Below, piece after piece: positions 11,530-38,302 of a stretch of DNA of 64,000 nt; the first letter of the stretch is position 1; the number at the start of each line of letters is the position of its first letter. The DNA is taken from NCBI RefSeq assembly GCF_001571365.1, contig NZ_BCTQ01000008.1, positions 1 through 64,000 on the forward strand. Reading direction: 5' to 3'. The translations under genes were made by a program, and so were the position numbers. The stretch is from Achromobacter denitrificans NBRC 15125 (GTDB taxonomy: Bacteria > Pseudomonadota > Gammaproteobacteria > Burkholderiales > Burkholderiaceae_B). The notes beneath the pieces are model-generated. The model did not search any database. It worked only from the letters and a program-made list of their open reading frames with translations, and had not been told where the DNA came from.

Positions 11530-12528
11530 ATGAATCCTACCCGCCGCCGCTTCATCGGCATCGCAGCCGCCGCCTCCGCGCTGGCGCTCGCCCCCTTTCC
11601 CGCGCGCCGCGCCGCGGCGTCGATCGCGCCGACCGTGTGGCAGGGCGTGGCCCTGGGCGCCGACGCGGAGTTGCGTCTGTACCACCCGGATCCGCAAGCC
11701 GCGCAGCGCCTGATCGCGCAATCGCTCCAGGAGCTGCGGCGGCTGGAGGCCGTCTTCAGCCTGTACCGCGACGACAGCGCCCTCTCGCGCCTGAACCGCC
11801 AGGGATACCTCGACAATCCGCCCGCCGACCTGCTGCGGCTGCTCAGCGTGAGCCAGCGGTACGGCAGGCTGACCGGCGGCGCCTTCGATCCCACCGTGCA
11901 GCCGCTGTGGAAGCTGTATGCCGGGCATTTCGCGCAGCCCGGCGCAAGCCGCGACGGCCCGCCCGCCCTTGCCGTGACGCAGGCGCTGGCGCGAGTGTCG
12001 TACGAGGACGTGGCATTGGAGAGCGACCGCATCACCCTGCAGCGCCCCGGCATGGGCATCACGCTCAACGGCATCGCGCAGGGCTACATCACGGACCGCG
12101 TCACCGAACTGCTCAAGGAAGCCGGACTGGAGCGGGCGCTGGTGGACATGGGCGAGATACAGGGCATGGACACCCGCGACGCGCCGGCCGACTGGCAGGT
12201 CGGGCTGGCCGATCCGCAAAACCCCGCCGCCCTGCTCGCCACCGCGCGCCTGCGCAACCAGGCCCTGGCCACCTCCGGCGGCTATGGCACGGCCATCGAC
12301 GCCGAAGGCCGGTTCACCCATCTTTTCGATCCGCGCACCGGCCGGGCGCGGCCGCTGTACCGCAGCGTCTCCGTCATGGCGCCCAACGCCACCATGGCCG
12401 ACGCGCTGTCCACGGCCTTCTCCTACATGCCGCTGGATGCCGCCGACGTCATCGTCCGCGAACACGGCCTGCGCGCCTGGTTCGCGCTGCCCGACGGCGG
12501 GCTGGCCGTGCAGGGCGCCGAGTCCTGA
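11530..12528 (+). CDS. apbE: NosX/ApbE, FAD:protein FMN transferase
   Basis: Periplasmic flavin transferase that uses FAD to attach FMN covalently to a Thr of NosR. The start at 11530 gives 332 residues with a Tat-like signal (TRRRFIGIAAAASALAL); an upstream in-frame start (11470) overlaps nosL and would mask the signal. The ApbE core is visible, including GGAFDPTVQPLW, GMGITLNGIAQGYITD and SGGYGTAIDAEG. It closes the nos operon 43 bp after nosL. Confidence 0.93.
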   Translation: MNPTRRRFIGIAAAASALALAPFPARRAAASIAPTVWQGVALGADAELRLYHPDPQAAQRLIAQSLQELRRLEAVFSLYRDDSALSRLNRQGYLDNPPADLLRLLSVSQRYGRLTGGAFDPTVQPLWKLYAGHFAQPGASRDGPPALAVTQALARVSYEDVALESDRITLQRPGMGITLNGIAQGYITDRVTELLKEAGLERALVDMGEIQGMDTRDAPADWQVGLADPQNPAALLATARLRNQALATSGGYGTAIDAEGRFTHLFDPRTGRARPLYRSVSVMAPNATMADALSTAFSYMPLDAADVIVREHGLRAWFALPDGGLAVQGAES

Positions 12529-35556: not shown

Positions 35557-35858
35557 GGCGGAACTCCTGGGGCAGCGTGCAGCGTGTTATGCCCCATATC
35601 GCAAGCAAGCGGCGTGCCAGCCGCGCCGCGGCGCGCGCCGGAGGGGGCGGGTCCCGTCCGCGATCCGCGGCAGGGCGCCGAAAGGGTCCAGCTTGGTGAA
35701 GGCCGGCCGCGCCGCGCACCACGGCGGTGCGCGACGGCAAACGTCGCCGACATCAGCGCGTCATCTTGCTGAATAACCATATGCGCGATCCGCATTGAGC
35801 CCGCGTGCGGACAGGTCTACACTGATCGTTCCCTTACACCGCTTGGAGCATGCGCCCC
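35557..35858. other. Intergenic region without a recognisable gene
   Basis: These 302 bp separate divergent genes. Short open frames on both strands lack ribosome sites and protein-like composition. The last ~60 bp before the FMN reductase are less GC-rich and presumably contain its promoter. No clear operator or repeat was found. Confidence 0.6.
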
Positions 35859-36413
35859 ATGAGCACCTACAAGATCGCTGTTTTCGTCGGAAGCCTGCGC
35901 GCCGCCTCGTTCAACCTGCGGCTGGCCCGAGCGCTGGAAAAGCTGGTGCCGGCGGACTTCAAGTTCGAATACGTCAGCCTGGGCGACGTGCCGCTCTACA
36001 ACCAGGACAACGAGAACAACCTGCCCGGCCCCGCCGCCAAGCTCAAGCAGCAGATCGCCGATGCCCAAGGCATCCTGTTCGTCTCGCCCGAGCACAACCG
36101 CTCGGTCCCCGCCGCCATCAAGAACGCCATCGACTGGGGCTCGCGTCCGTGGGGCCAGAACTCCTGGACCGGCAAGGCCGTCGGCATCGTCGGCACCTCC
36201 CCCAGCGCCGCCGGCACCGCGATGATGCAGCAGCACCTGCGCAACATCCTCGCCGCGGAAGGCGCCAATGCCCTGACCACGCCGGAAGTCTTCCTCCAAT
36301 TCACGGAAGGCCTCATCGACGACCAGTACAACGTCACCAACGAAGGCACGCGCAAATTCCTGCAAGGCTGGATCGACCGCTACGTAGACTGGATCAAGAA
36401 ATTCAACGCCTGA
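35859..36413 (+). CDS. NADPH-dependent FMN reductase (ChrR/YieF type)
   Basis: Flavodoxin-like cytosolic reductase of 184 residues. The start at 35859 suits the GGAG at 35845; the ATG at 35850 is too close to it. Motifs: FMN phosphate loop VGSLRAASFN (about 9-18) and FVSPEHNRSVPAAIKNAIDW (about 75-94). Relatives reduce quinones, chromate and azo compounds with two-electron transfer. It is followed by a strong terminator. Confidence 0.92.
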   Translation: MSTYKIAVFVGSLRAASFNLRLARALEKLVPADFKFEYVSLGDVPLYNQDNENNLPGPAAKLKQQIADAQGILFVSPEHNRSVPAAIKNAIDWGSRPWGQNSWTGKAVGIVGTSPSAAGTAMMQQHLRNILAAEGANALTTPEVFLQFTEGLIDDQYNVTNEGTRKFLQGWIDRYVDWIKKFNA

Positions 36414-36484
36414 TCGCCGCCGCTGCCGGCCAGGAGCCCCGCTCCAGCCGGCAGAGATCGCCTGCCCTACCTCCAGGCGATCAC

Positions 36485-36514
36485 GCCCCCCGATACGTCG
36501 GGGGGCTTTTTTTT
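36485..36514 (+). terminator. Rho-independent terminator of the FMN reductase gene
   Basis: A GCCCCCCGA/TCGGGGGGC stem with a 4-nt loop is followed by eight T. Confidence 0.9.
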
Positions 36515-36525
36515 GCGCGAGGCAT

Positions 36526-36803
36526 GCAGCGTGGGGGCCCAACAATATCGGCCTACCCCCCAGCCCCCTCGGAGAACAGCAAGCGCGCGAGGGAGGCGAA
36601 TTGCACAGCCTCCGCAAAAATAGCCGGCCCGCCGCCGGGCCGCCCCAAGGCGGGCCAGCCCCCTAGGAGAACAGCAAGCGCGCGAGGGAGGCGGATTGCA
36701 CAGCCTCCGCAAAAATAGCCGGCCCGCCGCCGGGCCGCCCCAAGGCGGGCCAGCCCCCTCGGGGGGCAGCAAGCGCGCGAAGCGCGCGCAGCGTGGGGGC
36801 CCA
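36526..36803. repeat. Dispersed repeat, copy 3, expanded by a 95-bp tandem duplication
   Basis: GCAGCGTGGGGGCCC stands at 36526-36540 and again near 36789-36802. Between them are two tandem 95-bp units (36562-36656 and 36657-36751), nearly identical, each with AGAACAGCAAGCGCGCGAGG, a GGAGGC...GCCTCC hairpin and GGCCGCCCCAAGGCGGGCC. A third partial unit (36752-36780) then runs into the common tail. It is related to the copies at 2791 and 12565. No credible gene was seen. Confidence 0.8.
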
Positions 36804-37390
36804 CTTATCCCCGTCAACTGTGGAGAAGGTTGAGGACAGCCTTGGGGCAGAACCAAAATCCCCTGCCCCGCCAAGCACTTGCAAAGGCCGGTCAAAAATT
36901 GCGCAATCATGCTTTTGGATGATTTTTGACGCACTTATCCACTAAAACCCGACCTGCGGGCGATGCCGCGCGCCAGATCCGCCGGCAATGTGGATTTGTC
37001 CCCGCGTTCTGTGGAAAAGCATGAGGACAGTATGAGGGCAGGTCGGTATTTCCCTTGCAGATCAATGACCTGCAGGGGGTGATCAAGAAAGGCCCAATCG
37101 CCGGGTTGCGACGCCCCGGTTGTCCCCGGGAAATGTGGATAAGCCTGAGGACAGTATGAGGGCAGACCGCAAAAGTCCTTATGGGCCAACGACTTGGAAG
37201 GACCGGGCAAGAAACGCGCAAGCCCGCGCCTTCACGCAGGCGCGGGCGCGGTGGCGAGGCCCGCGCCACGACCGGGCCCCGCTTGTCCCCAGCGAATGTG
37301 GACAAGCCTATGAACAGTCGCCTAACAAGCCGAAAAAGCCCTTATCCGACAGTCACTTGGAAGGCATGCTCAAGAAAGAAGCAGCGGTGC
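36804..37390. repeat. Four iterated units with DnaA-box-like paired motifs
   Basis: Units begin at 36804, 36995, 37119 and 37282. Each opens with a 7-nt arm (consensus NTTRTCC), an 11-nt spacer in every case, and a 7-nt arm GGANAAG, so each contains TGTGGANAA. Units 2 and 3 then share TGAGGACAGTATGAGGGCAG exactly and unit 1 approximately. Units 1-4 all carry a later segment like ACTTGGAAGG...CAAGAAA. Additional 9-mers TTATCCACT (36935), TGTGGATTT (36989) and TTATCCGAC (37342) occur. TGTGGATAA at 37134-37142 is a perfect DnaA box. No coding gene was recognised. Confidence 0.75.
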
Positions 37391-37394
37391 CGAC

Positions 37395-37610
37395 TCAGCT
37401 GTTCCCCTCCAGCCGCATGCCGATCTTCAAGCCGACCTGCCAGTACGCCACCTTGCCGTCCTTGATGTGGCCTCGCACCTCGGTAACCTCGAACCAATCC
37501 AGATTGCGCAGGGTTTCGGATGCGCGCTCGATGGCCTGCGAGATGGCGTCGTCGGTGGATTTGGTGGAAGAGCCCACCAGTTCGATTTGCTTGTAGATGT
37601 GATTCGACAT
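37395..37610 (-). CDS. Dodecin, flavin-binding protein
   Basis: The 71-residue protein from the ATG at 37610 (GGAG upstream) belongs to the dodecin family: IYKQIELVGSSTKSTDDAIS, ETLRNLDWFEVTEVRGHI and VAYWQVGLKIGMRLE. Dodecins form hollow dodecamers that bind and sequester flavin pairs, protecting them or buffering free flavin. A longer in-frame start (37700) lacks homology. It ends right next to the iterated repeat block. Confidence 0.93.
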   Translation of the reverse strand: MSNHIYKQIELVGSSTKSTDDAISQAIERASETLRNLDWFEVTEVRGHIKDGKVAYWQVGLKIGMRLEGNS

Positions 37611-37798
37611 AGCTCGTCTCCACGAAGGGGGGTGAGTCGTGAATCGTCGGCCTGGCGGCGATGTTCCGGCGCTTACGACCGGCAATCCATTCGAACACAC
37701 AGCATACGCTCTCGGCGCTAGAGTGGTGTTACGAGTTCCGTCGCGCCGAACTCGGCGCGCGGAGCCGCAACCCGCAACGCAAGCAAGGAGGTATCGTC

Positions 37799-38302
37799 AT
37801 GCCTGAACGAAAAACCCTGGAACGAGCGGCGCGCGACAAACGTCAAGGCAAGTCCGCATCCACGCAGGCCGGAGAATTCGTGCGCGAGGAAATCGAGCAC
37901 GTGCGCGAAGGCAAGCACGGCGTGCGGTCCACCAAGCAGGCCATCGCGATCGGCCTGTCCAAGGCCCGCCGCGCCGGCGTCAAGCTGCCGGCTTCCAAGA
38001 AGGCCAGCGCCGCCACCAAGCGCAAGGCCGCGCAGGACAGCCATGCGGCCGGCGACGGGCACGCCAAGTCCGCCACGCGCGCCCGCGCCACCACCACCGC
38101 CTTGAAACGCGAAAGCGCCAAGCCGGCATCGCGCTCGGCGTTGTCGCGCCAGGCCAGCACCGCGGCCTCCAAGCGCACGGCGGCGTCTCGTTCGGCCGCG
38201 GCCAAGAAGGCCGCCGCCACCAAGGGCGCCGCGGGCCGGTCGGCCGCCGCGAAGAAGGCGGCCCGCACCCGCGCGGCCAATCGCGCCGCCCACGCGCACT
38301 GA
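37799..38302 (+). CDS. DUF6496-like protein with histone-H1-like Lys/Ala-rich tail
   Basis: The 167-residue protein is preceded by a strong AAGGAGGT. The N-terminal ~65 residues (FVREEIEHVREGKHGVRSTKQAIAIGLSKARRAGVKLP) match the DUF6496 pattern. The rest is a low-complexity tail with Ala, Lys, Arg, Ser and Thr runs (AAAKKAAATKGAAGRSAAAK) like bacterial H1-type nucleoid proteins. DNA binding through the tail is likely by composition; the role is unproven. Confidence 0.85.
   Translation: MPERKTLERAARDKRQGKSASTQAGEFVREEIEHVREGKHGVRSTKQAIAIGLSKARRAGVKLPASKKASAATKRKAAQDSHAAGDGHAKSATRARATTTALKRESAKPASRSALSRQASTAASKRTAASRSAAAKKAAATKGAAGRSAAAKKAARTRAANRAAHAH

Follow-up and report, generated by a model that had tools for sequence, protein, structure and literature searches.

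The array at 36805-37384 of the window (the whole stretch of Achromobacter denitrificans DNA analysed, 64,000 nucleotides) consists of four 102-bp units in non-coding DNA between an FMN reductase gene and a dodecin gene. Comparison of the sequence with known systems suggests that it is a tandem, multicopy locus for DnaA reactivation that resembles DARS2 of Escherichia coli, and we give this reading a probability of about 0.75; the DnaA-reactivating activity of the array is predicted by analogy. The flanking genes are convergent: the FMN reductase gene (forward strand, ending at 36413) and the dodecin gene (reverse strand, ending at 37395) both face the array with their 3' ends. The features are as follows.

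35850..36413, forward strand: NADPH-dependent FMN reductase gene (Pfam PF03358, E 8.8e-39)
36485..36506, forward strand: terminator-like hairpin 3' of the FMN reductase gene, outside the array
36805..36906, forward strand: unit 1 (unit profile 78.6 bits, E 1.7e-21)
Unit 1, DnaA-type boxes: I 36805-36813 (+); II 36819-36827 (-); III 36831-36839 (-); possible fourth 36842-36850 (-)
Unit 1, other motifs: IHF-type 36869-36881; Fis-type 36890-36904
36907..36995, no strand: linker 1, drifting sequence of near-fixed length
36996..37097, forward strand: unit 2 (unit profile 71.9 bits)
Unit 2, DnaA-type boxes: I 36996-37004 (+); II 37010-37018 (-, exact TTWTNCACA); III 37022-37030 (-); possible fourth 37033-37041 (-)
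Unit 2, other motifs: IHF-type 37060-37072; Fis-type 37081-37095
37098..37119, no strand: linker 2
37120..37221, forward strand: unit 3 (unit profile 76.5 bits)
Unit 3, DnaA-type boxes: I 37120-37128 (+); II 37134-37142 (-, exact TTATCCACA); III 37146-37154 (-); possible fourth 37157-37165 (-)
Unit 3, other motifs: IHF-type 37184-37196; Fis-type 37205-37219
37222..37282, no strand: linker 3
37283..37384, forward strand: unit 4 (unit profile 68 bits)
Unit 4, DnaA-type boxes: I 37283-37291 (+); II 37297-37305 (-); III 37309-37317 (-); weak fourth 37320-37328
Unit 4, other motifs: IHF-type 37347-37359; Fis-type 37368-37382
37395..37610, reverse strand: dodecin gene (Pfam PF07311, E 1.7e-29), with its 3' end 10 bp from unit 4

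The four units that an earlier note on this DNA had placed here were all found; they start at 36805, 36996, 37120 and 37283, and the period of 124-191 bp that it gave is right (191, 124 and 163 bp). Its 7-11-7 dyad, TTRTCC-N11-GGANAAG, is confined within the window to the four units (five strand hits, unit 4 being counted on both strands) and appeared in none of 100 dinucleotide shuffles. The dyad corresponds to two inverted DnaA-box-like sites, boxes I and II, and a weaker tandem box III follows; relative to box I, the boxes of all four units start at +0 (forward), +14 (reverse) and +26 (reverse). The perfect DnaA box that had been reported at 37134-37142 is there, with a second exact TTWTNCACA match at 37010-37018, and the 20-mer TGAGGACAGTATGAGGGCAG is indeed exact in units 2 and 3. 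Measured against the consensus, box I scores 5-6 of 8 letters in the window, box II 7-8 and box III 5, compared with 7 of 8 for the DARS boxes of E. coli. Boxes I and III are thus weak, and cooperative binding is therefore assumed.

The same box geometry is found in E. coli. In MG1655 the boxes of DARS1 lie at +2108, -2122 and -2134 (in stretch L303) and those of DARS2 at +1636, -1650 and -1662 (in stretch L302), in each case 14 bp and then 12 bp apart, so that spacing and orientation (+, -, -) in both cores are identical to those of all four window units. That the spacing is equal in DARS1 and DARS2, with box I opposed to boxes II and III, is also stated in the passages of PMC5742627 on these loci. 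A pair of boxes is by itself poor evidence: a lax search for a +/- pair 14 bp apart gave nine instances in 464 kb, window units included, and other distances gave two to eight. At such lax thresholds the pair is not rare; our case depends on conservation and on the module as a whole, not on the pair alone.

It is the extent of the conservation that the earlier note had understated: the dyad is real, but the conserved register covers the full 102 bp of each unit. Forty-six units selected from three genera aligned without an internal gap, with five rows offset by one base at the ends; this selection leaves out the Bordetella units of L117 (2494) and L174 (1281) and both units of L108, and omits the units of most of the 38 Achromobacter loci discussed below. 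When further genera and four loci of an outgroup were added to the alignment, a single outgroup row (L281) needed one inserted base. The columns that never vary among the 46 units lie in both arms of the dyad, in the IHF-type motif (a C and a T) and at the two ends of the 15-bp Fis-type motif (G and C).

The third DnaA-type box, oriented as box II, starts at column 28. Once the dyad is set aside, no column scores higher as a DnaA box over 178 family units (4.97 of 8, group-weighted; the next is column 86, with 4.76). This set of 178 units, used for the family-wide motif tests, includes the L117 and L174 Bordetella units and excludes those of L108. Ten units from eight other genera (L275 was left out) score 5.2 at column 28 and 4.8 at the next-best position; these units were found with the same unit profile, so that their scores are not independent, and by permutation the box is not significant in them (114 of 2000 as good). 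Of six outgroup-family loci, four were scored and give 7.0 of 8, with 5.25 for the next-best position; L279 was omitted, as was L280, whose alignment is in a shifted register.

For IHF the motif WATCAANNNNTTR was scored, which we take to be the other-strand form of the IHF consensus. It peaks at columns 66-78 of the 178 units (group-weighted), where one of 3000 permuted motifs did as well; in the ten units of other genera none of 2000 did. The IHF-type motifs are imperfect, averaging 5.9-6.4 of 9 letters in unit groups A1, A3 and A4, and the motif read on the reverse strand scores nearly the same (6.34 versus 6.71). The Fis motif GNNYANNNNNTRNNC peaks at columns 87-101, with five of 3000 permuted motifs as good in the 178 units (group-weighted) and five of 2000 in the ten. 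PMC8682772 was the source of the consensus sequences for DnaA (TTWTNCACA) and Fis; for IHF it gives TAAnnnnTTGATW.

In E. coli DARS2, IHF sites and then Fis sites lie on the side of box III, and the order in the unit is the same. The unit is more compact: its IHF motif starts 64 bp after box I, compared with 93 and 109 bp for the one-mismatch matches in DARS2, and its Fis motif starts 85 bp after box I, compared with 145 bp. DARS2 of E. coli is a single 455-bp locus, whereas here a 102-bp module is repeated fourfold at one locus and recurs at others. DARS1 of E. coli, as described in the relevant parts of PMC5742627, is about 100 bp long and has the core geometry of the unit; according to the passages of PMC4585315 on DARS1 it works without need of protein factors, while the unit bears IHF-type and Fis-type motifs. 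Moving the IHF site of DARS2 by 5 bp towards the Fis site was worse than moving it by 10 bp, and both shifts of the IHF site towards the core were harmful, as reported in the sections of PMC4245941 on these shifts; this sensitivity fits the fixed register of the units.

Box core, IHF and Fis motifs, intergenic mid-position and partner genes (see below for the last two) all agree with a DARS. The unit profile gave no hits to E. coli DARS1, DARS2 or datA at E ≤ 10. The array thus shares its architecture with the E. coli DARS; the lack of hits does not bear on function, but leaves common descent unproven.

The dyad can also be read as an operator, with the array binding a dimeric regulator that recognizes TTRTCCMC-N7-GTGGAYAA. 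Over 12 Achromobacter genomes the dyad pattern gave 97 strand hits in total, 4-11 in each (against 0 or 1 per strand for reversed-pattern controls). Counted by hand, 79 of the 97 belong to this array, to a second locus at a distance of about 100-140 kb or to a single palindrome close to the terminus; the other 18 are elsewhere. The palindrome is perfect in the source genome, TTATCCACA-N5-TGTGGATAA on contig 14 at 11837-11859 (L095 4038-4060). It is found in 11 of the 12 Achromobacter genomes, with neither box III nor the remainder of the unit, and hand arithmetic puts it some 0.45-0.5 chromosome lengths from dnaA where this is computable.

A dyad standing alone in 11 of 12 genomes is what an operator might look like. 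The array, however, sits between convergent 3' ends, with no sigma-70-type promoter match in 36350-37850, and its register runs about 80 bp past the dyad and takes in the third box and the IHF and Fis motifs. Twenty-five other units lie in mixed gene settings (4 convergent, 6 divergent and 15 tandem) with unrelated neighbours, and two of them overlap a predicted ORF; the neighbouring genes, here and for the synteny in other genera and families described below, were called crudely, as the longest ORFs by codon-position GC, and their strand is sometimes wrong. We regard an operator array as distinctly improbable.

An array of small structured RNAs, an option that the earlier note had raised, would explain the hairpins seen by eye in single units, such as GTCCTT..AAGGAC in unit 3. 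These are not conserved as structure: RNAalifold on the 46 units gave -1.77 kcal/mol with a covariation term of 0 and a two-sided change in 0 of 5 pairs. No Rfam family was found in the array (two matches below the gathering score lie within 36439-36514, over the FMN reductase terminator), and the same lack of a promoter match applies. With no covariation and no Rfam family the structured RNA was rejected, and we think it very improbable.

Two observations concern the immediate surroundings of the array. Read-through from the dodecin gene into the array (on the opposite strand, 37384-37395) might disturb IHF binding; the title of PMC10950094 says as much of tRNA read-through at datA. On the other side the array is adjoined, within 36526-36803, by a GC-rich repeat (CCAGCCCCCTCGGGGGGCAGCAAGCGCGCG..., about 50 bp) that is dispersed over the source genome, with 63 further copies there among the matches listed; a 95-bp tandem pair at 36560-36749 includes part of it.

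The array is a nearly constant feature of the genus. A 591-bp block containing it is present in 42 of 43 Achromobacter genomes, the source genome included; the genome without it is a 78% complete assembly and has three unit-profile matches. Across 24 other Achromobacter genomes the block is 69-86% identical to the window. At 38 Achromobacter loci the mean majority fraction is 0.87 in unit columns versus 0.59 in linker columns (0.66, 0.55 and 0.51 for linkers 1, 2 and 3), and identity of at least 95% is reached by 216 of 408 unit columns, compared with 12 of 172 linker columns. The DNA between the units had been described as variable; its sequence does drift, but its length is nearly kept. The first spacing is 191-193 bp at 27 of the 30 measurable loci of the 38, 181 at two and 202 at one; the second is 123-125 at 37 measurable loci; the third is 163-164 at 32 of 36 and 174 at four. 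No spacing is 3-9 bp off the commonest one, so that length changes within the genus are either of 1-2 bp or of 10-11 bp. This suggests helical phasing of the units, in Achromobacter alone and on about three independent length changes; the spacings in Bordetella hinzii (123, 164, 135, 151 and 138 bp) show no helical phase.

Beyond the genus, the family was searched with the unit profile, which uses sequence only, under stricter filters and at E ≤ 0.01 per genome. Matches were obtained in 208 of the 268 family genomes, from 39 of its 43 genera; the best E is 1e-5 or lower in 153 of the 268 genomes and 31 of the 43 genera (hand count), and the matches in the other 55 of the 208 are weak. Each matching genome has 1-11 matches among the matches listed. 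A separate scan for dyad pairs 115-145 bp apart gave at least 80 loci in at least 118 stretches; 20 of the 80 listed loci have a dodecin gene alongside (15 in Achromobacter, 4 in Bordetella and 1 in Schauerella); these are all the loci of the three genera among the matches listed. The 60 loci without a dodecin match, again among the matches listed, include several that resemble DnaA-box clusters of other phyla. Loci in Ktedonobacter, Thermosporothrix, Thermogemmatispora, Tengunoibacter and Dictyobacter (L128, L114, L125, L138, L145 and L172) have many inverted DnaA-box pairs with the 14-bp geometry of the unit, and are perhaps the origins of those genera. The earlier note had proposed looking for the units in related genomes and beside dodecin there, and both searches came out positive. 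By motif scan the dodecin locus has six dyads in B. hinzii, seven in Bordetella genomosp. 1 and five in Schauerella fraxinea, where the unit profile adds one more unit.

Seven profile matches were found in the source genome: the four of the window array, one on contig 58 adjoining an inositol monophosphatase-like gene, and two on contig 40, one on each side of a MocR-type regulator gene. The dodecin, inositol monophosphatase-like and MocR-type loci are syntenic and recur in other genera. At the inositol monophosphatase locus (L284 4899-5016) a second unit, present in genomes G013, G009 and G018, is absent from the source genome, where the gene gap is 118 bp versus 197 bp in G013. An MscS-like membrane protein gene appeared on inspection to be a recurrent neighbour in further genera.

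Outside the family but within the order, a single weak match (E 7e-5 to 0.006) was found in each of 10 of the 16 genomes searched. Four of the six loci inspected there (L276, L277, L280 and L281) lie beside exbB/exbD-type genes, with xseA opposite in three. The single units at these four loci are diverged, and boxes II-III are closer to the consensus in L277 and L281.

Dispersal of this kind, with 1-11 profile matches per matching genome among the matches listed, would also be expected of a mobile or palindromic repeat (REP- or MITE-like) without a cellular function, and a different repeat of some 60 copies, the GC-rich one, does abut the array. Against this, the loci are syntenic across genera, and the paralogues have diverged yet kept the same columns. 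A search of 72,556 plasmid records with the sensitivity of blastn gave no match, and a plasmid or mobile origin was rejected on that ground; no transposase was seen by eye among the ORFs near the array. A functionless repeat is extremely unlikely.

The chromosomal position of the units was computed for genomes with dnaA on the same contig, which leaves out G101, G103 and the source genome; seven of the genome lengths used are rounded to 0.1 Mb. Thirty-one of 41 unit loci (21 genomes, E ≤ 2e-5) lie 0.2-0.4 chromosome lengths from dnaA, mostly mid-replichore. The distances fall into bins of 1 (below 0.1), 2 (0.1-0.2), 15 (0.2-0.3), 16 (0.3-0.4) and 7 (above 0.4), outliers at 0.099, 0.189 and 0.44-0.47 being included, and differ from a uniform distribution with p 7.5e-7 (Kolmogorov-Smirnov), a statistic that ignores shared ancestry. 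In G013 the dodecin array lies at 0.66 and the locus of the contig-40 type at 0.26, on opposite arms. DARS2 is likewise intergenic and between oriC and the terminus, as stated in the parts of PMC8682772, PMC4245941 and PMC5742627 that describe its location.

The earlier note had offered DnaA titration or reactivation, or an origin-like element, as the function; this was supported, with DARS-like reactivation favoured over a datA-like site and over an origin. In a datA-like site the units, with IHF, would promote hydrolysis of ATP-DnaA, or would titrate DnaA, and so lower initiation. Every unit has clustered DnaA-type boxes and an IHF-type motif, and datA of E. coli is likewise a cluster of DnaA boxes with an IHF site; its exact IHF match starts 65 bp from a forward box, much as the IHF-type motif of the unit starts at 64 bp from box I. 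With as many as 11 matches per genome, among the matches listed, the units could also titrate DnaA in part. The box geometry, however, is the 14/12 of DARS, and our scan of datA gave no 14/12 triple and only one +/- pair (+1907/-1919), which is 12 bp apart. The unit has a Fis-type motif, whereas the scan of the datA region gave no Fis match, and there is no strong DnaA box beyond the IHF motif of the unit. datA lies nearer oriC in E. coli, in contrast to the mostly mid-replichore placement of the units. datA was rejected on the box geometry in the scan, and we consider a datA-like function unlikely.

A second replication origin would account for the boxes and motifs of the array, since oriC too combines inverted and tandem DnaA boxes with sites for IHF and Fis. 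In G013, sampled as 20 stretches of 20 kb, GC skew stays mostly positive as far as 0.45 and mostly negative beyond 0.5; its sign changes broadly near dnaA/mnmG and near 0.46-0.5, not at the array (0.66). The unit profile has no match at E ≤ 0.01 in three mnmG/dnaA stretches, two from the source genome and one from G013 (L102, L103 and L104), and there are several unit loci per genome. The skew sampled in G013 and the lack of a profile match in these three stretches led us to reject a second oriC, for which we see next to no likelihood.

A DARS2-like locus would need its partner proteins, and these appear to be encoded. In 17 of 17 genomes, the source genome included, a joined E. coli query gave Fis-like, IhfA, IhfB and DiaA-like matches; the Fis-like ones are 35-47% identical to the E. 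coli query, and Fis-like and DiaA-like are assigned by match, not by orthology. In 12 of 12 genomes there is a second DnaA-family match beside DnaA, with an open frame of 235 amino acids in 11, which from its size we take to be Hda-like. The primary DARS2 paper, in its passages on distribution, restricts Fis and the DARS2 core to those gammaproteobacteria that are relatives of E. coli (PMC4245941), and a later review, in the corresponding part, speaks of beta- or gamma-relatives (PMC5742627). At the level of sequence, a confinement of Fis to gammaproteobacteria seems not to hold here. Searches of the open-licence literature on DARS2 and DnaA in Bordetella, Achromobacter and betaproteobacteria gave no description of such arrays among the papers listed. 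Bacillus subtilis has six DnaA-box clusters outside oriC, which the sections of PMC13220808 on them discuss with the level of free DnaA, and according to the same sections it lacks IHF, datA and DARS.

If the array works like DARS2 of E. coli, boxes I and II would each take one DnaA molecule, the two lying head-to-head, and the weaker box III, perhaps with box IV, would add further DnaA in head-to-tail order. Immediately downstream, IHF and Fis would bind, bend the DNA and keep the assembly together; ADP would be stripped from DnaA and ATP rebound, which would raise ATP-DnaA before oriC initiates again. That DnaA, IHF and Fis bind the units, that ADP is released and that initiation is affected are each predicted from the analogy with DARS2. 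Several cores at one locus, with copies on both arms, may provide more reactivation capacity or a dependence on gene dosage.

It is possible, at somewhat less than even odds, that the family recharges DnaA in multicopy fashion, by DARS2-like arrays and copies on both arms, with the Achromobacter modules forming one phased assembly; if so, the strength of that assembly would be set by the number of units. The results suggest that members of the family may time the copying of their chromosome with several such sites. A compact, repeated DARS2-like module throughout a betaproteobacterial family would raise questions about the evolution of DnaA reactivation and about what leads some lineages to multiply the modules. 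At 102 bp it would be a natural module for biochemistry, smaller than the 455-bp DARS2 of E. coli, and the range of 1-11 matches per matching genome, among the matches listed, would be a natural experiment on initiation control.
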